The notes beneath the pieces are model-generated. The model saw nothing but the letters and a program-made list of their open reading frames with translations. It had not been told where the DNA came from and made no database searches. A stretch of 64,000 nt of DNA from Virgibacillus ndiopensis (GTDB taxonomy: Bacteria; Bacillota; Bacilli; Bacillales; Amphibacillaceae): NCBI RefSeq assembly GCF_900187325.1, contig NZ_FZMZ01000005.1, positions 558,001 to 622,000 of the forward strand, read 5' to 3'. Positions 1,338-62,262 of the stretch are shown one piece after another (the stretch's first letter is position 1; every line of letters starts with the position of its first letter). The position numbers were made by a program, and so were the translations under genes.

Positions 1338-4139
1338 TTAAAACCACTCTTCTGCTTTATCCATCAATTTGTGTGTAGAATCAAATGTTGTTGGGACACT
1401 TGGGATTGATTCGGTAAAATATTTTCCGTATCTAGCTTTTACGATTCTTGCATCACAAACAAAAACAAGTCCACGATCATTGGAAGAACGAATAAGCCGT
1501 CCGAACCCTTGTTTAAATCTAATTACTGCATTTGGTAAAGAAAGTTCCATAAATGCATTTATTCCCTCTTCTTTTAAATGATCAGATTTTGCCTGATAAA
1601 CTGGATGATCAGGTGGTTGAAATGGTAGGCGAACTATCATTAAACATGATAAATCTTCACCAGGAATGTCAACACCTTCCCAAAAAGAACTAGTACCTAA
1701 TAAAATTGCTTGGTCAAAGTTTACAAAATTCTTCTTAAGTCTTGAACGACTACCACTTGATATTCCTTGAGCAATTAATGCGAATTTTGTTATATCGATT
1801 GCTTCCTTGAGTATTGTATGTGCACGTTTTAACATGTCATAAGAGGTAAAAAGCACAAGCATTCTGCCGTTAGTTATTTCAGAAAGCGATATAATTGCCT
1901 CACATGTTGAATAAATAAATGCATCTAAATCACCATGTTTAATATCTGGAAAGTCATTTGGAATTAATAATTGTACCTGATCGTGATAAGAAAATGGTGA
2001 ATCAATTTTTTTCGTTATTGTATTTTCAGATTGTAATCCCAAACGGTTTTGAATAAATGTAAATGAATTTTTCATTGTCAATGTCGCACTAGTTAAAATG
2101 ACACTTTGTTTCTTTTCGAAAAAGTCAGTTGTTAAAAACTTAGAAATTTCAATTGGTTCACTATACAAATACACCGCATTTTTAGCTCCATATGCTTCAA
2201 TTTCTATCCATTTAACATCGTTGTTCAGTTCAGTTAAAAATAATTGTTCCATTGTATCAATAAATAATTGCATATGCTGAATAGCTGCCTGGATTTCCTC
2301 CCTATCATTTTTATCAAGCTGCTCTTGTTTCGTTAAATAGTCTTCCAGCTGTGCTAGGATGTGAATTAAATCCCTAAAATTGAAAGTTAACCTCGTTGCC
2401 ATTTCCTTAATGACACGCCATTGTTTAGGGTTCTCTTTATCATTTTCAAAACGGTATTGAATACGACCAATATCACTAAAAGATTTTTTGTATTTTTGCT
2501 GATCAACGACATATTGAAAAATATGACGAAACAAATCATCAATTTCATGCTTTGTTAACCCAAATTTATGATCCCATTTGTCCATTATGGTTTCCTCATT
2601 TTTTACTGGATATTTCCCCAATAATTTCCCAAGCCAGTTCCCATCATCGACTAATCCAATGTGATTAAGATTATAGTTAATATTCGCATAATCCAGTTTC
2701 AAACCATAATGTTTTGATGCGGTTTCTTCTAAATGGTGTGCCTCGTCAATAATAACCTTTTCATATGATGGTAAAAATTGATAACCATTAAAAATATCGG
2801 TACATAACAATGCATGATTCGTAATAACGATATCCGCTTGTTGTGCTCGTTTTCTAGCTCTTTGATAAAAGGATCGTGAAAACCAAGGTGATGATGGATC
2901 TGCATATCCCTCTGTATCAGTTGAAATTCGTTTAAAGAATAAATACCCACTGGGAGGTAATTGAATTTCATCAATATCACCAGTTTCGGTTTCAGTTAAC
3001 CAAACTAAAATCATAGCCTTGGTTAATGTGATATCATAATTGTCAACTTGTCCTGTTCCTAACTCTCTTTCAAATTTTTCTAAACTAATATAATGCTGTT
3101 TTCCTTTTAATAAAGTGACATTAAAAGGAAAAGAAACAAGCCTTCGGATTAATGGTATTTCTTCATCTAACAACTGTGACTGTAATTGAGTTGTATGCGT
3201 ACTTATTACAATACGTTTTTTTGTTTTAACAGCTTCAAAAATTGCCGGAATTAAATATGCTAACGATTTACCTGTTCCAGTCTCTGCCTCTATTAACGCA
3301 TGTGACTTCACTTGAAAGGCATCAAAAATCTCTTCGGACATTTCGCGTTGTCCGTTCCTTTTTTCATAGTTCTTCATAAGCTGTGCCATCGTTCCATTTG
3401 CCTCATAAATGGAATCTAAATAACTCCCAAAAGCCGTCTTGACAGTTACTTTGGCACCATTACGATCGTCTTGTTGGTTAAATGCTAATCCTTTGTAAGA
3501 AGTAATAGTAGCTTGTTCTTCTGTTGAAAAAGCTAACGCTTCTTGTCGCTCTGTAAGTAGTTGATATAAATCCGATTTTAGTGTTTTTTCTAGCTTTAAA
3601 AGATGATCAATCGTTTCATATGGAAGTGTTTCAAGCTTTTCCATTAGGTTTATAAATAATTCAGCTGTTACATAAGCATCTGACAAAGCACGGTGGGGAT
3701 CACTATGTTTAATTCCTATATACTCCGCCAATTGGCCAAGTTTAAAACTGGGTGCCTGCGGATATAAAATCCTTGCAAGTTCCACTGTATCGATGACAGG
3801 ATTATTTAACTTTTTCATATTATATGTAGCAAGCTCTTCATTTAAAAAGCCTAGGTCAAAAGGTACATTATGAGCTATTAGATAACTGTCTTCAAACATC
3901 GAAACAATTGCATTTGCCTCATCTTTAAACGTTGGGGCATCTAAAACATCTTCATTGGAAATACCTGTTAAATTAGATATAAATGGTGGTATTGATTGTT
4001 CTGGATTTAAAAGGGTAGAATACTCTTCACTAATTGTGTTATTCTCTATAACAACAATTCCAACTTCAATTATTTTATCATTTTTAATTGGTGAGTGCCC
4101 TGTTGTTTCAAGGTCTATTACAACATATCTTCCGTTCAT
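1338..4139 (-). CDS. dinG: DinG-family exonuclease/helicase-like protein
   Basis: Protein of 933 aa combining an N-terminal DEDDh 3'-5' exonuclease domain with a superfamily 2 XPD/DinG-type helicase domain. Exonuclease motifs are visible: D9 and E11 in VVIDLETTG, AHNVPFDLGFLNE near residue 90, and HRALSDAYVT near 150. The helicase part has Walker A EAETGTGKS near residue 288, the DEAH box IIDEAHH near 465, and the C-terminal arginine motif FKQGFGRLIRS. The four Fe-S cysteines of Gram-negative DinG are missing between Walker A and DEAH, as in the Staphylococcus protein, which is known mainly as a nuclease. I chose the start at 4139 because AGGTGG precedes this ATG; an upstream in-frame start at 4181 has no such site. 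The upstream leader contains a structured element and a terminator. Confidence 0.93.
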   Translation of the reverse strand: MNGRYVVIDLETTGHSPIKNDKIIEVGIVVIENNTISEEYSTLLNPEQSIPPFISNLTGISNEDVLDAPTFKDEANAIVSMFEDSYLIAHNVPFDLGFLNEELATYNMKKLNNPVIDTVELARILYPQAPSFKLGQLAEYIGIKHSDPHRALSDAYVTAELFINLMEKLETLPYETIDHLLKLEKTLKSDLYQLLTERQEALAFSTEEQATITSYKGLAFNQQDDRNGAKVTVKTAFGSYLDSIYEANGTMAQLMKNYEKRNGQREMSEEIFDAFQVKSHALIEAETGTGKSLAYLIPAIFEAVKTKKRIVISTHTTQLQSQLLDEEIPLIRRLVSFPFNVTLLKGKQHYISLEKFERELGTGQVDNYDITLTKAMILVWLTETETGDIDEIQLPPSGYLFFKRISTDTEGYADPSSPWFSRSFYQRARKRAQQADIVITNHALLCTDIFNGYQFLPSYEKVIIDEAHHLEETASKHYGLKLDYANINYNLNHIGLVDDGNWLGKLLGKYPVKNEETIMDKWDHKFGLTKHEIDDLFRHIFQYVVDQQKYKKSFSDIGRIQYRFENDKENPKQWRVIKEMATRLTFNFRDLIHILAQLEDYLTKQEQLDKNDREEIQAAIQHMQLFIDTMEQLFLTELNNDVKWIEIEAYGAKNAVYLYSEPIEISKFLTTDFFEKKQSVILTSATLTMKNSFTFIQNRLGLQSENTITKKIDSPFSYHDQVQLLIPNDFPDIKHGDLDAFIYSTCEAIISLSEITNGRMLVLFTSYDMLKRAHTILKEAIDITKFALIAQGISSGSRSRLKKNFVNFDQAILLGTSSFWEGVDIPGEDLSCLMIVRLPFQPPDHPVYQAKSDHLKEEGINAFMELSLPNAVIRFKQGFGRLIRSSNDRGLVFVCDARIVKARYGKYFTESIPSVPTTFDSTHKLMDKAEEWF

Positions 4140-4167
4140 ATTACCACCTGCCTTCATTACATAAAGG

Positions 4168-4199
4168 AAAACTCTTATCAAAAAACTGATAAGAGTTTT
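4168..4199 (-). terminator. Intrinsic terminator between panD and dinG
   Basis: Twelve-base-pair stem AAAACTCTTATC / GATAAGAGTTTT with an 8-nt loop, only 29 nt upstream of the dinG ATG and about 160 nt beyond the panD stop. It could end the pan operon or act as an attenuator in a dinG leader. The same 12-nt arms recur in the terminator after gudB at 46456-46490. Confidence 0.6.
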
Positions 4200-4345
4200 G
4201 CGCCTTACAAAATCACATTAAATAGCCTTCGCTTTTAATATGCCAGCAACACTTCTAGGGGTATTGCCGCAAAACCAATTGGTATTCCGATCACAAATCC
4301 CTGCGAGCCGCAGTTCATTTATAATGACCACCCCAAACCAGTCGA
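4200..4345 (-). other. Unexplained structured element upstream of dinG
   Basis: This 146-nt stretch between panD and the dinG terminator is GC-richer than neighbouring spacers. Read on the minus strand it can fold into a helix of GCGGCAATAC with GTGTTGCTGGC (positions about 4241-4270, G-U pairs and one bulge, loop CCCTAGAA). It also holds a small TCATT/AATGA hairpin near 4317-4329 and an enclosing GCGAG/CTCGC pairing. It has open frames on both strands, including a 27-codon ORF at 4235-4318 preceded by GGGGTGG. I do not recognise it as a known riboswitch class; it could be a cis-regulatory RNA, an mRNA 3' end or a dispersed repeat. Confidence 0.4.
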
Positions 4346-4359
4346 TCTCGCTTTTTATA

Positions 4360-4743
4360 CTACAATTCAGTCAGTGGTGGTTCTTGTTCAATTAATTGTT
4401 GAATTTCATTTTTTTCATTCATTATTGCAACTTTTGGTTTGAATGAAGCTAACTCTTTCTCAGAAACCATTGCATATGAAACAATAATGACAGTGTCATC
4501 TGGTTGAACAAGTCGTGCTGCAGCTCCATTTAAGCAAACAATCCTAGATCCTCTATCACCTGGTATAACATATGTTTCTAATCGAGCACCATTATTATTA
4601 TTAACGATTTGAACTTTCTCATGTGGTAAAATACCGACTTGTTCGATTATATTTTGATCTATCGTAACACTGCCAACATAATTAAGATTTGCTTCTGTAA
4701 CTCGTGCACGATGAATTTTTGCCCTCATCATGGTGCGATACAT
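4360..4743 (-). CDS. panD: Aspartate 1-decarboxylase precursor
   Basis: Pyruvoyl-dependent enzyme that decarboxylates L-aspartate to beta-alanine for pantothenate synthesis in the cytosol. The 127-aa proenzyme has the self-cleavage site Gly24-Ser25 within [10 protein letters not shown]; Ser25 becomes the pyruvoyl group. Also visible are the substrate-binding lysine region [13 protein letters not shown] and the strand [17 protein letters not shown]. Length equals that of the usual family member. GGGGG lies upstream of the ATG at 4743. It is the last gene of panB-panC-panD and follows panC by 12 nt. Confidence 0.97.
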
Positions 4744-4755
4744 AAAAATTTCCCC

Positions 4756-5628
4756 CTACTTTATATGTTTAACGAGGCTTCCATCTGTATCAAATATCAA
4801 ATTATCTATTAGTCGCGCGCTTTCAAAGAAAACGGCAGTTGCTAAAATAACCTGTTGATCTATCGTAGATACGTCCTGGAGTTCTGGGTAGCTCAATAAT
4901 TCAACATAATCTACCGTACCACTAGTCTTATTTTCAATAATCTTTTTAACCTCTTTTTCAATAATAGCAGGATTTTTTTCCCCGTCAACTACTAAACGCT
5001 GCCCATGTTTTAAAGCTTTGTATAGCCATACAGCTTCATTTCGCTCTATCTTACTTAAATTTACATTCCGACTGCTTTTGGCTAAGCCATCCTCTTCTCT
5101 TACAGTTGGTAAAGCAATTAACTCGTTTGGAAAATTCAAATCGTGGATTAGCGCATTTACAACTGCAATCTGCTGTGCATCTTTCATCCCAAAAAACGTT
5201 TTGTCAGGTAAAATAATATTAAACAACTTAGACAAAACAGTTAAAACACCTTCAAAATGACCCGGGCGAGAACGACCACATAAAACATTTACACGTTCAT
5301 TTATGGTCATATCAATCATCATTTTTCTCGGATACATATCACGCACACCTGGCATGAATAATATGTCTACACCAGCTTGTTCCGCAAGTTTTATGTCATT
5401 TTCCTCATTACGCGGATATTGTTCATAATCCTCGTTTGGTCCAAATTGTAGCGGATTAATAAATATGCTTGTAACAACAATATCGCTATCTTTTTTTGCT
5501 TCCTTCATTAAGGATAAGTGTCCTTCATGAAAGAAACCCATTGTTGGAACTAAACCAATTGTTTTATTGCTTCGTAACAATCCTAATGATTTTGTTTGCA
5601 TTTTATCTATTGTACGTATTATTTCCAT
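4756..5628 (-). CDS. panC: Pantothenate synthetase
   Basis: ATP-dependent ligase joining pantoate and beta-alanine to pantothenate through a pantoyl-adenylate. The 290-aa protein has the HIGH-like motif in LVPTMGFFHEGHLSLM (His34, His37) and the KMSKS-like GLAKSSRNVNLS near residue 183, typical of the cytidylyltransferase fold. The stretch ITSIFINPLQFGPNEDYEQY-type region (about 53-74) forms the pantoate site. It lies 10 nt downstream of panB and 12 nt upstream of panD, so the three steps are made from one transcript. AGGTAG precedes the ATG at 5628. Confidence 0.97.
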   Translation of the reverse strand: MEIIRTIDKMQTKSLGLLRSNKTIGLVPTMGFFHEGHLSLMKEAKKDSDIVVTSIFINPLQFGPNEDYEQYPRNEENDIKLAEQAGVDILFMPGVRDMYPRKMMIDMTINERVNVLCGRSRPGHFEGVLTVLSKLFNIILPDKTFFGMKDAQQIAVVNALIHDLNFPNELIALPTVREEDGLAKSSRNVNLSKIERNEAVWLYKALKHGQRLVVDGEKNPAIIEKEVKKIIENKTSGTVDYVELLSYPELQDVSTIDQQVILATAVFFESARLIDNLIFDTDGSLVKHIK

Positions 5629-5638
5629 TTTTATCTAC

Positions 5639-6472
5639 CTACTTAATTATGTTTGGTAATGCATCTTTATTTTTAATCAAAAAGCTATATGCTTCAGTAG
5701 GAAATTTATTATTTTTGACATCATTACTATACGATTGAATAGCCAGCTTTACTTCTGAATTTAAGTCCGTATAAGACTTTACAAACTTTGGTAAGCGGTC
5801 TACTCCATACTTGAGGATGTCATGATATACTAATACTTGTCCATCGCAAGCCATTCCTGCACCAATTCCTATTGTTGGTATAGATAATGATTCTGTAACA
5901 ATGTCGGCAAGCTCCATGGGAACACATTCTAGAACCACTGCAATTGCTCCACTTTCTTCTAATTGCTTAGCATGTTGCAATAATTTCTCGCCGGTTTGTT
6001 TGTCCTTACCTTGGACTTTATAACCACCTATAACGTTAACAGTTTGAGGTGTTAACCCAATATGTGCTACGACAGGAATCCCCGCATTTGTTAAAAATTT
6101 TGTAAGATCAAGAATTTCATCTGATGCCCCTTCAATTTTTAAAGCTTGTGCATCCGTTTCCTGAAAAATTTGTTGTGCATTTTTTAAAGAATTTTCAAGT
6201 GATACATGGTATGACATGAATGGCATATCAACAACTACAAACGTCTTCTTTGCTCCACGTTTTACGGCTTTTGCATGATGAATCATATCATTGACTGTTA
6301 CCTTTACAGTAGAGTCATACCCAAGCACTACCATTCCAAGTGAATCACCAACTAAAATCATATCAATACCTGCTTGTTCTGCCATTTTTGCAGATGGGTA
6401 ATCGTAAGCAGTAAGCATTGCTATTTTTTGATTTTCATTTTTCATTTTTTGTAGATCAAGCCTAGTTAACAT
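5639..6472 (-). CDS. panB: Ketopantoate hydroxymethyltransferase
   Basis: Transfers a hydroxymethyl group from methylene-tetrahydrofolate to 2-oxoisovalerate to give ketopantoate, the first committed pantothenate step. The 277-aa length from the ATG at 6472 matches the family, and GGAGAG lies just upstream. An in-frame start at 6538 lies inside birA without a ribosome site and was rejected. Visible motifs are [10 protein letters not shown] near residue 20, the metal-binding [17 protein letters not shown], and [17 protein letters not shown] near the C-terminal third. The start overlaps the birA stop by 11 nt, implying translational coupling to the biotin regulator. Confidence 0.96.
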
Positions 6473-7466
6473 GATTCCTCTCTCCTTCCCTATACCAGTC
6501 AATTTCTGCTGAATATAACTTTTTGATCTCACCGTCATTGTTTTTCGTTAACAACGCTCCATCCTCCGCAATACCTAAAAAGACTGCTTCCCAGCTTTTT
6601 TTGATAGTTTTAATTTGAATCGTTTCACCGATTCTAAACCCATAACTTTCCCATTTATTCTTAACGTTTGGAAAACCGTACTTTATGTATGAATCATAAG
6701 CGGATTCAAACGTTTGTAAAATGTGTTGAATAAGATTAGTAATATCGAATGTTTTATTTGTTTCTATTTGTAAAGAGGTAGCTTTCCTATGAATATCTTC
6801 AGGAATGTCTCCCAAAGTATGATTAACGTTTATGCCTACACCAATGACAACATATTGAATCTGGTCCTGTTCAGCTTGCATTTCTGTTAATATACCTGCT
6901 GTCTTTTTGTTATTTATTAGAATGTCATTGGGCCATTTGATTTTTGGCTCTGTATCCATATCTTTTGATAATACGTCTGCCAACACTGTCGCCGTCAATA
7001 ATGTTAATTGCGGTGCTAGGTAGGGTAAGATATCAGGTCTAAGTAAAATGCTCATCCAGACGCCTTTTCCTTCTGTTGAATGCCATTTACGATTCATTCT
7101 ACCTTTTCCAGCCGTTTGCTCATCAGCAATGACGATTGTACCGTGTGGTGTATTTTCTTGAGCCAACTGATGGGCAATATGTTGGGTGGATGTAGTTGAC
7201 GATTTATGTATTATTTTTTTCCCTAGCCATTCTGTATTTAATCCCCACTGGATAGTGTTTTCACTTAATTTTTCTGGAGACTTTAATATCCGATACCCTC
7301 TTTTAGATTTCCCTTCAATTTCATAACCGTCTTTTTCAAGTTCTTTCATATGCTTCCAGATTGCTGCACGAGATATATTAAGTTCTTCGGACAAAAATTG
7401 ACCTGAAACATAATTGTCTCTTGTTTTTTCTAAAAGCTTGATTAGTTTATTTCGGGTGGATGCCAT
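6462..7466 (-). CDS. birA: Bifunctional biotin-protein ligase / biotin operon repressor
   Basis: Attaches biotin to carboxylases through biotinyl-5'-AMP and, in class II enzymes like this one, represses biotin genes through an N-terminal winged helix. In the 334-aa protein the DNA-binding domain is residues 1-65 ([20 protein letters not shown] is the helix-turn-helix), followed by the biotinylation loop [11 protein letters not shown] and the catalytic [19 protein letters not shown] region. The ATG at 7466 is preferred because AAAGG sits 10 nt before it; the in-frame TTG at 7475 is too close to that site. The 5' end overlaps cca by 25 nt. Confidence 0.95.
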
Positions 7467-8644
7467 CTTATCCAATCCTTTAATTCATTTTTATTGTTTT
7501 TTATGTTTCCGAATACAACTTGCTGCTCTAGTAAATTTAAGTAAGTTTGTATCCACGGTCCTTTTTTGACATCAGGAAATAATGATATAAGATCATTCCC
7601 ATTCAAAGCCAAATCTTTTTTTGAATTGATTGGTAACAATTGCTCGATTTGCTCTAGTTCCTCTATCAAAACATGTCCACGACCATAAAACATATTAATG
7701 ATCTTTACAAAACCTTGATAGTTTTCAGTGTTTAAACAATATACCAACCATTGGTCTAATTGATGATTTTTATAATGTAAAAATGCTTCATATAACTGAG
7801 TTGCTTCCTGTTTTATCTTATTTGAACATTTCCATTCTTTCACCCATGTGAGGATGCTAATTTGTGGTTCAATAGAATGAAATAAAGCAATTACTTGACC
7901 AAACGATGATAATGAGTTTAGTTTCTTAGGAAGATTATCAATGATATATGGATATTTTACCATAACAGGTAGGTGTTTATATATATCTGTGCTTTTTAAA
8001 TACTCCATTCCGTGATTTATAAACTCACCAGCAAATAACTTTGTAAATTCTGTAGCAAGGCGTTCAACAGCTATTGTTTCAATTTGTTGTTTAAGCTCTT
8101 TCATCTGATCCAATGTTTCTAGATCTATTGAAAATCCTAATTGACTAGAGAACCTAAGCGCGCGCATTATTCGTAATGGATCTTCATTAAATCGATTATA
8201 CCCATTGCCTACTGTTTTAATTACCTTATTTTCAAGGTCTTTCTTACCCATAAATAAATCAATGATATCACCATTTTTATCCATCGCTAAGGCATTAATC
8301 GTAAAATCTCTTCGTAGTAAATCCTGATCAATAGTTCTAATAAATTCAACAGAGTCTGGATGCCTTTGATCGCTATACGTTCCATCTACACGAAATGTCG
8401 TTACTTCATAGGATTGTTGTTGGTGCCTTACGATAACTGTACCATGTTCAATCCCCACAGGAATTACCTTATCAAACATTGTTATAATCTCTTGTGGGGT
8501 TGCAGACGTTGCAATGTCAATATCCCCAATTGGTCGTCGTAGCAGTATATCTCGAACACATCCACCTACAAAATATGCTTGATGATGATGCTTTTCAATT
8601 TGCTTTAAAACAAATTTTGCTTGTTCAAATTTTTCTGCCAGCAT
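7442..8644 (-). CDS. cca: CCA tRNA nucleotidyltransferase
   Basis: Adds or repairs the 3'-CCA of tRNA without a template. About 400 aa, class II nucleotidyltransferase. The head domain shows YFVGGCVRDILL and the catalytic acids in IGDIDIATSA, the neck shows RRDFTINALAMD, and the base-recognition segment shows DPLRIMRALRFSSQLGF. The C-terminal tail is the long Bacillus-type helical body. The ATG at 8644 is preferred over the ATG at 8656 because GATGGTGAT lies just upstream of it; the difference is four residues. It follows bshA by 14 nt and overlaps birA, as in B. subtilis. Confidence 0.95.
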   Translation of the reverse strand: MLAEKFEQAKFVLKQIEKHHHQAYFVGGCVRDILLRRPIGDIDIATSATPQEIITMFDKVIPVGIEHGTVIVRHQQQSYEVTTFRVDGTYSDQRHPDSVEFIRTIDQDLLRRDFTINALAMDKNGDIIDLFMGKKDLENKVIKTVGNGYNRFNEDPLRIMRALRFSSQLGFSIDLETLDQMKELKQQIETIAVERLATEFTKLFAGEFINHGMEYLKSTDIYKHLPVMVKYPYIIDNLPKKLNSLSSFGQVIALFHSIEPQISILTWVKEWKCSNKIKQEATQLYEAFLHYKNHQLDQWLVYCLNTENYQGFVKIINMFYGRGHVLIEELEQIEQLLPINSKKDLALNGNDLISLFPDVKKGPWIQTYLNLLEQQVVFGNIKNNKNELKDWIRWHPPEIN

Positions 8645-60954: not shown

Positions 60955-60993
60955 ATACAAAATACCAACCTTAATTTAGTTGGTATTTTGTAT
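60955..60993 (-). terminator. Terminator after the ECF S-component gene
   Basis: Perfect 15-bp stem ATACAAAATACCAAC / GTTGGTATTTTGTAT with a 9-nt loop, followed on the minus strand by TTTTTTTC. It overlaps the last codons of the gene. Confidence 0.85.
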
Positions 60994-61494
60994 AGTGAAT
61001 CGGTTATTAGCATATTTTTTGAAGAAATGGGATATGACAGGATACAACAAAACCATAAATACACCATTCCCTATTGCATGATAGCTATCAAACGGTAACC
61101 CAGCTAGGTAATATGCAAAGAAATTTCCTCCTGCTATGGAATAAGTGGTTAACGAAATAACAAATCCATAAAAATAACCACTAAACACAGCAAAAACCAC
61201 AATTATAAATAACGGTACGTTCTTAAAAAATTTACCTAAAAGACCGCTAAAAATTCCTATTAATCCCCACGAAACTACCTGCCAAACAGTCCAAATTCCC
61301 ATTCCTAGTAACATATTAGACAAAAATGTCGTTAAGAAAGTTAATACTATCGAGGCAACAGGTCCTAATATGAAACCGCATATAATAATTAACGATGTAA
61401 CTGGTTGAACATTTGGAAGAAATGCGAATGCAGATCTTCCTACTACAGCAAGTGCTGCCAGTAACGCAAGTAATGTTAATTTATATGTATTCAC
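60976..61494 (-). CDS. ECF transporter S component, probably for cobalamin or a precursor
   Basis: Membrane protein of 172 aa with five to six transmembrane helices (about 5-25, 33-60, 66-84, 92-118, 126-160), the size and layout of substrate-binding S components of energy-coupling-factor vitamin transporters. Visible stretches are FAFLPNVQPVTSLIIICGF and PFDSYHAIGNGVFMVLLYPV. It lies 5 nt after a DUF4430 lipoprotein under a cobalamin riboswitch, so cobalamin or a related corrinoid/base is the likely substrate (inference). No EcfA/EcfT genes are in the window; it would use the shared energising module. Confidence 0.85.
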   Translation of the reverse strand: MNTYKLTLLALLAALAVVGRSAFAFLPNVQPVTSLIIICGFILGPVASIVLTFLTTFLSNMLLGMGIWTVWQVVSWGLIGIFSGLLGKFFKNVPLFIIVVFAVFSGYFYGFVISLTTYSIAGGNFFAYYLAGLPFDSYHAIGNGVFMVLLYPVISHFFKKYANNRFTIQNTN

Positions 61495-61499
61495 TTACA

Positions 61500-61943
61500 T
61501 CATTCCCATGCCTGTAAATCAAAACTAACCTTATCCCCTGGTGATAATGTTATTTCTTTAGCACCCTTTGTCGCCATTTCATCGTTGACGAAGAACATCC
61601 AAGATTTTTGTTCTCCTTCTTTCGGGGCAACTCCATTAATAGACGTAATAAATCCACCATCAAAATCAGTTTCAATTTCGAAGTTTTCTTTCATAACATC
61701 CATTAAAATAGCACCTTCTTCAATTGCTATCTTTTTTTCAGTGATAAATTCAGCTTCTTTATCCTTTGAAATTGTTATTGTTACAACTTCTTGATTTTCC
61801 TCGTTTTTAACTTCATTACCACCACTTTGTTCCGTTTGACCATTGGTTGTAGCTTCTGAATTACTTTCATCATCTGAACTACATCCTACTAATAGACCAA
61901 TAATTAAAAGTAAAGAGCCTAATCGTAACAAAATTTTATTCAT
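61500..61943 (-). CDS. DUF4430-domain lipoprotein, candidate cobalamin binder
   Basis: Lipoprotein of 147 aa: signal peptide with lipobox LLVGC (Cys21), a low-complexity Ser/Glu/Asn linker (22-52) and one DUF4430 domain (about 65-147) ending KSWMFFVNDEMATKGAKEIT and a GDKVSFDLQAWE tail. DUF4430 is related to the C-terminal domain of animal transcobalamin, so a role in capturing cobalamin outside the membrane is plausible. It is the first gene behind the cobalamin riboswitch and is followed by the S component. Confidence 0.85.
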   Translation of the reverse strand: MNKILLRLGSLLLIIGLLVGCSSDDESNSEATTNGQTEQSGGNEVKNEENQEVVTITISKDKEAEFITEKKIAIEEGAILMDVMKENFEIETDFDGGFITSINGVAPKEGEQKSWMFFVNDEMATKGAKEITLSPGDKVSFDLQAWE

Positions 61944-61996
61944 CCCAAAAACCTCCAGATAATTTTTTTGGAGGGTCGTTTGAACAACCTAAAAAA

Positions 61997-62020
61997 GCTA
62001 ACTCTTCAAATAGAGCTAGC
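61997..62020 (-). terminator. Riboswitch expression-platform terminator
   Basis: Minus strand stem GCTAGCTCT / AGAGTTAGC with a 6-nt loop followed by TTTTTTAGG, between the riboswitch aptamer and the DUF4430 gene. This would switch transcription off when ligand is bound. Confidence 0.75.
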
Positions 62021-62112
62021 TAAAAAAGACAATCGAAACATTAAAAAAGTCCATTATGATGTATCGGTTATCTCAATTGCTCATACCCTCGAAGCATTGA
62101 AACAGTTGAATA

Positions 62113-62262
62113 TTGGCAGGTCTACTGACTTGTAATTAAATCCTACTTTAAGTCCTTCCCATATGGCTAGCATACAGTGGTTATACTTATTTCGTTCATT
62201 ACATACAGTTGCGAGGACAGTTCTAGCTTTTCACTAGATTCCCTTTTAAGCAAAAGCACCAA
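62113..62262 (-). promoter_or_regulatory. Cobalamin (B12) riboswitch
   Basis: On the minus strand all conserved blocks appear in order: GGTGCTTTTGC, AAAAGGGAATCTAGTGAAAA, ACTGTCCTCGCAACTGTA, CCACTGTATGC, GGGAAGGACTTAAAGTAGG and the B12 box AAGTCAGTAGACCTGCC (about 62115-62131). This is the AdoCbl-class aptamer. It stands in the 383-nt space between resE and the DUF4430 gene and controls the lipoprotein/S-component pair. Confidence 0.93.

Follow-up and report, generated by a model that had tools for sequence, protein, structure and literature searches.

The minus strand of a 64,000-nucleotide stretch of the Virgibacillus ndiopensis genome (contig NZ_FZMZ01000005.1, positions 558,001 to 622,000; hereafter the window) carries, in series, a cobalamin riboswitch aptamer, an intrinsic terminator, a gene for a DUF4430 lipoprotein and a gene for the S component of an energy-coupling factor (ECF) importer (Table 1). 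The two proteins probably take up B12 together, because their genes nearly always co-occur in the Bacilli sampled, and on our best reading the lipoprotein would be the extracytoplasmic subunit of an ECF-CbrT corrinoid importer.

Riboswitch, lipoprotein and S component of the operon

The covariance model RF00174 matched the leader over its full length, with 100 bits against a gathering score of 31.5. A chance match is ruled out at this score (E 8.2e-24), which upholds the riboswitch proposed in the initial annotation and excludes a leader without one; the feature limit given there, 62262, falls short of 62278, where the aptamer match begins. For comparison, 39 named loci were found by S-component search (Virgibacillus, Lentibacillus, Oceanobacillus, Halobacillus, Gracilibacillus and others), which were picked by similarity to the query and are hence mutually related. 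RF00174 exceeded its gathering score upstream of the lipoprotein gene in 30 of these 39 relatives (11/14, 9/14 and 10/11), the weakest being locus L025 with 36.7 bits. Since the leader as a whole is not unusually stable (folding energy z -0.61), support for the riboswitch comes from the covariance model and this conservation.

The intrinsic terminator claimed earlier was also recovered; a scan of 1,451 bases on both strands returned two terminators, and shuffled sequences gave a mean of 0.8 (standard deviation 0.9). Hairpins resembling terminators, their stems 7 pairs or longer, lay between the riboswitch and the lipoprotein gene in 24 of the 30 relatives with a riboswitch, compared with a mean of 0.97/30 and a maximum of 3/30 in 30 rounds of dinucleotide shuffling. 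As expected from known riboswitches of this family, the operon would be turned off by corrinoid through the riboswitch and terminator. Bacillaceae-1 RNA (RF01690) was observed near the operon in some relatives (L037, 5776-5832 and 6237-6299; L034, 10380-10447; L051, 3430-3497).

The first gene encodes a small protein in which PF14478 scored 72 bits against a cut-off of 23.8, the sole DUF4430 match in the genome. Its Cys21 follows a lipobox-like LVG (LVGC, residues 18-21; signal peptide judged by eye) and is invariant among 19 aligned members. The lipobox pattern was found in 36 of the 39 relatives, and the other three, for which an over-long start was called, carry LAGC further in. A polar linker (about residues 22-50) follows the lipid anchor. 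The AlphaFold model of residues 50-147 (98 residues) has a predicted local distance difference test score (pLDDT) of 90.6 and aligned with transcobalamin, haptocorrin and intrinsic factor at Z 12.4-13.8 over 92-96 residues and 15-23% identity, the first other fold following at Z 7.8. Foldseek ranks 1-19 were occupied only by 3u7z, transcobalamin, intrinsic factor and haptocorrin. The closest solved structure (3U7Z, Z 14.2) is RUMGNA_00854 of Ruminococcus gnavus, deposited as a putative metal-binding protein; no publication was found under the name RUMGNA_00854. With phmmer, the lipoprotein alone retrieved no related structure, and a profile was required.

The lipoprotein is therefore predicted from its model to have the beta-grasp fold of the transcobalamin beta domain, as found in the animal carriers transcobalamin, haptocorrin and intrinsic factor (5NP4, 2BB5, 4KKI, 2PMV). 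Unlike these carriers, it lacks the alpha/alpha-toroid half and is predicted to be anchored to the membrane: no toroid family was among the Pfam matches of either operon protein, and DUF4430 alone reached its cut-off in the 147-residue protein. The one-domain DUF4430 lipoprotein of the initial annotation is thus confirmed, and the protein resembles a transcobalamin with the beta domain only.

The second gene was likewise recognized as that of an ECF S component, as had been proposed (PF12822, 40.7 bits; PF07155, 38.3 bits; both above cut-off). As a single sequence, the S component matched CbrT (6fnp, E 2.3e-20) and no other solved structure to E 1; a profile of 40 members matched CbrT at E 2.3e-33 and nothing else among solved structures to E 10. 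The two proteins share 37% identity over 130 residues. The genome has four PF12822 matches, of which the window S component alone matches CbrT (tblastn), and its AlphaFold model (pLDDT 90.6) shows the S-component fold. The nearest named relatives of the gene are those of Virgibacillus oceani (88% identity) and of Lentibacillus and Virgibacillus halotolerans (74-79%). From its sequence, we infer that the S component is of the CbrT type, with a corrinoid as ligand.

The operon looks bicistronic, because the last bases of the S gene already belong to a second terminator. The GTG start of the S gene lies 5 bases past the stop of the lipoprotein gene, to which it is possibly translationally coupled, and the lipoprotein gene itself is preceded by GGAGG, which we take to be the ribosome-binding-site consensus. 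The promoter scan was without signal: the three sigma-70-like sites found compare with a shuffle mean of 7.2 and do not serve as evidence.

Table 1. Features of the operon in window coordinates
Feature	Position	Strand	Basis
Cobalamin riboswitch aptamer RF00174	62278-62098	-	100 bits, E 8.2e-24, model 1-189
Intrinsic terminator, probable riboswitch expression platform	62021-61996	-	10-pair stem, 6-base loop, T run
GGAGG, probable ribosome-binding site of lipoprotein gene	61956-61952	-	read in sequence
DUF4430 (transcobalamin beta-domain-like) lipoprotein open reading frame, 147 amino acids	61943-61500	-	PF14478
Lipobox cysteine codon, Cys21 of LVGC	61883-61881	-	sequence
DUF4430 beta-grasp domain (predicted), residues 77-144	61715-61512	-	PF14478
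Putative CbrT-type ECF S component, 172 amino acids, GTG start	61494-60976	-	PF12822/PF07155; 6fnp match
Operon-end intrinsic terminator, overlapping the S stop codon	60993-60955	-	16-pair stem and T run

Pairing of the two genes and two cluster layouts in Bacilli

A homologous DUF4430 lipoprotein gene lies directly upstream of the S gene in 39/39 named loci. We then considered 398 Bacilli genomes, one per species and drawn evenly from the class, using a DUF4430 search and an S-component profile search. DUF4430 matched in 141 genomes and S in 143; both were found in 137, DUF4430 only in 4, S only in 6 and neither in 251 (Fisher p 2e-93, a value that ignores relatedness). All ten discordant genomes have weak matches (DUF4430, E 3e-4 to 6e-4; S, E 1e-6 to 7e-4, compared with 1.2e-26 or less for the other S matches). 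When the ten were dropped, a choice made after seeing the scores, the DUF4430 and S sets were identical (137 = 137).

Gene placement was examined in 114 of the 137 pair-bearing genomes, 111 from listed places and three by direct reading. The matches lay within 15 kb on the same strand in 109/111 genomes, fewer than 300 bases apart in 43 of those. Among the genomes read directly, the genes were together in G158 and G037 (L134, L136) and not in G220 (L127), so that the pair was together in 111/114 overall. At L127 (G220:C5:242000-254000), no DUF4430 gene was found in 12 kb, and G220 has one DUF4430 match elsewhere; the open reading frame (ORF) beside the S gene was considered as a DUF4430 gene and rejected, its Pfam match being that of a LOG (lysine-decarboxylase-like) protein.

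The pair also stands next to genes of B12 use. A Lactobacillus intestinalis plasmid has the order nrdJ-DUF4430-S-cobO, and its S component is 62% identical to the characterized CbrT. Three Enterococcus/Lactococcus plasmids (L059, L063, L064) carry nrdJ (B12-dependent reductase), cobO (cobalamin adenosyltransferase), the DUF4430 lipoprotein gene and a divergent CbrT-type S gene confirmed by profile, and at L126 a class II reductase, S, DUF4430 and cobO genes lie in a row. In Lactobacillus delbrueckii, the reported cluster is nrdJ-cbrS-cbrT-pduO, with CbrS left undescribed in the discussion of the paper (PMC5997447). In its relative L. intestinalis, a DUF4430 gene adjoins the cbrT-like gene at the place that PMC5997447 assigns to cbrS, which suggests that cbrS is the DUF4430 gene.

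Gene order and RNA families were read in 24 genomes spanning the families with matches; the proteins of L135, whose Pfam families were checked, served as the reference for recognizing EcfT, EcfA and toroid proteins by similarity, and the DUF4430 gene of L131 was placed by Pfam search. Two layouts were found. In the first (11/24), a dedicated motor is present: the cluster encodes one or more DUF4430 proteins, S, a double EcfA ATPase and an EcfT homologue. In 10 of the 11, the stretch that was read also encodes an alpha/alpha-toroid-type protein. The toroid is sometimes on the DUF4430 chain, as in the 1,172-residue protein of L135 (DUF4430, Prenyltrans toroid and S-layer domains) and in L138. 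In the 13 representatives without a dedicated motor, no toroid match was found (0/13); in 10 of them, a small DUF4430 gene lies beside the S gene, at most 33 bases apart or overlapping. In L136 and L137, an ATP-binding cassette (ABC) ATPase gene and an ORF of 242-266 residues (two tested, no Pfam match) part the small DUF4430 gene from S, and L127 is the remaining one, with no DUF4430 gene in the stretch read. No natural DUF4430-S fusion was seen among the 24 representatives.

The window operon is of this compact kind, and it reads as a beta-domain-only transcobalamin because the related clusters own a motor and, in 10/11, a toroid protein. A B12 riboswitch was found in 16/24 representatives (14 RF00174, 2 adenosylcobalamin riboswitches RF01482), and in all 16 it precedes, on the same strand, whichever DUF4430 or toroid gene comes first. 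All 11 dedicated-motor clusters belong to these 16.

Motor, B12 need and surroundings in the genome

As the compact layout comes without a dedicated motor, the window operon must borrow one. The genome has two CbiQ/EcfT-family matches, one of them in a set with two ABC_tran ORFs (L154), flanked by ORFs that we take to be the ribosomal-protein gene rplQ and truA. Our best reading is that this shared EcfA-EcfA-EcfT module drives the window S component. The two-part corrinoid uptake system of the initial annotation thus finds support in its corrinoid specificity and is incomplete in its parts, since it leaves out the ATP-driven module at L154.

CbiC/CobH is required in both known corrin pathways, and no match to CbiC (corrin synthesis) was found in the genome; nor was there a match to the MetH B12 domain. 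The class II reductase NrdJ is present, one part of it scoring 457 bits. Its gene, which lies outside the window, is split by a group I intron (RF00028, 68.5 bits, E 3e-15; L153, G000:C2:704000-709000, 3076-2788, minus strand) between two reading frames that jointly resemble NrdJ.

Three B12 riboswitches were found in the genome: that of the window operon and those at L005 and L004, both outside the window. At L005, an aptamer on the plus strand (about 3505-3681) stands before genes of the nrdE-nrdF-nrdI type (3746-7638), for the large and small chains of ribonucleotide reductase and a flavodoxin. A riboswitch before a B12-independent reductase, together with NrdJ, would fit a cell that switches to NrdJ upon B12 import. 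The L004 riboswitch (8831-8650, minus strand, 119 bits), with a terminator-like hairpin seen by eye after the aptamer, precedes a 4HBT-family thioesterase ORF (8519-8049, minus strand). A B12-controlled thioesterase was unexpected; speculatively, it might spare coenzyme A when a B12-dependent step stalls.

BtuFCD imports corrinoid with an extracytoplasmic binding protein, as the window system would; it differs in that its binding protein is of PF01497 and in that the window transporter is of the ECF type. The window-operon proteins belong to families other than PF01497. Six PF01497 binding-protein genes were found in the genome, none near any of the three B12 riboswitches, and all six proteins stay below the NCBIfam BtuF cut-off of 234 bits (highest score 83.6; BtuC and BtuD were not searched for). 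The earlier suggestion that the pair acts instead of BtuF/BtuCD is plausible but not proved. The best BtuF-like protein (258 amino acids; L014, G000:C4:527158-527847 region) is encoded between NhaC-type antiporter and methionyl aminopeptidase genes. Its match begins at residue 2, a signal peptide is seemingly absent, and the 3.7 kb read near it hold no permease-like ORF of more than 200 residues except the antiporter.

A histidine kinase gene lies upstream of the operon and a sigX-like sigma factor gene downstream (250.7 bits, just below the NCBIfam cut-off of 260). In the next genome stretch, the histidine kinase gene is preceded by genes that we take to be of the resD/resC/resB/resA type. 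Horizontal or phage cargo was rejected as an origin of the pair, which is flanked by these host-type genes. Two records named as Listeria phages (OR847106.1, OR848718.1; 4-6 kb, unannotated) also contain DUF4430-like stretches, which are possibly host DNA.

The lipoprotein as a candidate subunit of ECF-CbrT

The idea of a two-component system already exists as prediction and annotation, and is older than first thought. Burroughs, Balaji, Iyer and Aravind (2007, PMC1796856) described the clade, its toroid fusions and its CbiO/CbiQ operons; they suggested that it scavenges B12 and that animal transcobalamin came from bacteria. Their SLBB proteins are of the same clade as the window lipoprotein, with an Oceanobacillus protein among the hits; neither an S component nor a riboswitch is named in the accessible text of that paper. 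In Lacticaseibacillus rhamnosus, LGG_02295 (LRHMDP2_2713, K8Q211) is listed as 'Additional lipoprotein component of putative cobalamin ECF transporter' (PMC9963975). This DUF4430 protein, encoded near rtpR and detected in the proteome, has the same predicted role as the window protein, which the accessible text of that source gives as a label only. ECF-CbrT of L. delbrueckii (6FNP) resembles the window system in its S family, by sequence, and in its shared ECF motor; a term search of the main text of the CbrT paper (PMC5997447) found none of the words lipoprotein, operon and riboswitch. As the initial annotation had supposed, we found no biochemistry of such a bacterial DUF4430 lipoprotein in the open-licence literature, subscription papers being mostly outside the search.

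The riboswitch, the sequence match to CbrT alone, the transcobalamin-type fold and the near-perfect co-occurrence and neighbourhood of the genes argue for corrinoid specificity, and we consider it likely that the gene pair takes up a corrinoid. When the corrinoid coenzyme is scarce, the aptamer would be free and the terminator unformed, and the lipoprotein and S component would be made. The lipoprotein, lipid-anchored on the outer face of the membrane, may capture the corrinoid on the face equivalent to the B12-holding face of the transcobalamin beta domain and deliver it to the CbrT-type S component at the extracellular mouth of the latter. S would then bind the corrinoid, dock on the shared EcfA-EcfA-EcfT motor, topple and release the corrinoid inside, as expected from known ECF families. 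The imported corrinoid would serve at least the B12-dependent ribonucleotide reductase NrdJ.

Such a hand-over of B12 from the lipoprotein to S could take the form of a relay, with the lipoprotein as carrier, or of a joint site, with the lipoprotein as lid. The two forms taken together are probable, given that the pair takes up corrinoid. In human transcobalamin, separation of the domains lowered the affinity, and the isolated beta domain was crystallized with cyanocobalamin (5NP4; PMC5599065). The two halves form a sandwich and assemble only with cobalamin (PMC5599065; Burroughs 2007, PMC1796856). From 5NP4 and this cobalamin-dependent assembly, it appears that a single domain can hold a corrinoid and that a second surface normally completes the site. 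A more specific proposal, which we put forward tentatively and regard as somewhat unlikely, is that of a split transcobalamin, in which the beta-grasp lipoprotein and CbrT would each contribute one half of a single corrinoid site at the surface of the membrane, with CbrT replacing the toroid.

Several observations weigh against a role of the lipoprotein as a subunit of a corrinoid importer. CbrT has a high affinity for cobalamin by itself, and together with its ECF module it restores cobalamin-dependent growth of E. coli (Santos et al. 2018, eLife, PMC5997447); since these two suffice there, the lipoprotein is not strictly required for transport. A riboswitch was not seen in 9/39 relatives, and the six of these that were searched again permissively were negative as well; nor was one seen in 8/24 representatives. 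The genes are apart in 3/114 genomes: by 577 kb in G091, on different contigs in G139, and in G220, where the 12 kb around S lack DUF4430. Furthermore, cbiC is present in 32/137 pair-bearing genomes, compared with 106/261 others, so the system is not confined to auxotrophs, and the pair as a marker of B12 auxotrophs holds only partly. Finally, structure comparison places the S model nearer folate (7nnt, Z 15.9) and riboflavin (5kbw, RibU, Z 15.5) S components than 6fnp (Z 11.4, 159-residue chain); 4huq, titled only 'a transporter', has Z 16.3, and rows 1-21 of the comparison include 7nnt and 5kbw above 6fnp. As the S model does not single out 6FNP, the CbrT assignment rests on sequence. The check on S clustering named in the initial annotation accordingly gave a divided result, with sequence grouping S with CbrT and structure alone placing it nearer the folate and riboflavin S components.

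Among the alternatives, a structural or gating partner fares best. The lipoprotein would then have little affinity of its own and would close over a corrinoid already held by CbrT, or steady S on the motor. The sandwich of transcobalamin, in which the beta domain is one half, is consistent with this, as is the compact layout: the toroid half was not found in any of the 13 representatives without a dedicated motor and S accompanies DUF4430, so CbrT may be the second half. However, the isolated human beta domain does bind cobalamin (PMC5599065), and a mobile carrier would be served equally well by the lipid anchor and polar linker. We regard this alternative as possible, if less than even in its chances.

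It is unlikely, in our judgment, that the lipoprotein acts in a different corrinoid step, such as stripping B12 from foreign carriers or recognizing cobinamide, while CbrT imports B12 by itself. The function of CbrT in E. coli without any lipoprotein (PMC5997447) and the B12-capturing surface lipoproteins reported from gut Bacteroides (PMC6143338) would agree with such a role, but the presence of both genes in every clear case of the 398 genomes argues for a shared step. That the S component imports another vitamin or a precursor and shares only the B12 regulation is very improbable: the folate S family comes nearest among NCBIfam models, and in structure the S model is nearer to folate and riboflavin S components than to 6fnp, yet both families stay under their cut-offs (27.7 against 60 bits and 17.1 against 99), no solved S component other than CbrT matches the profile to E 10, and the gene has a transcobalamin-type partner and a B12 riboswitch.

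The lipoprotein as extracytoplasmic subunit of ECF-CbrT thus remains our best reading, and the operon, whose main point the initial annotation got right, is a real, well conserved member of an already predicted kind. ECF importers are described as capturing their substrate by the membrane S component (e.g. PMC5997447). Because no clear S match without a DUF4430 match was found in the 398 Bacilli genomes, at least the B12 branch of these importers appears to have an extra subunit. The same pair occurs in Enterococcus and lactic acid bacteria, also on plasmids. With the pairing almost obligate in 137 genomes and two layouts recognized, the old prediction can now be put to a sharp and cheap test, the protein being small (a modelled domain of 98 residues). 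If the split transcobalamin were true, this ECF importer would possess an extracytoplasmic subunit as an obligate part, and operons with toroid, beta domain, S and dedicated motor would be its fuller form, related to the source of animal transcobalamin. Uptake clusters that combine the beta domain, toroid, S component and motor give a functional context to the bacterial origin proposed for animal transcobalamin (Burroughs 2007, PMC1796856).

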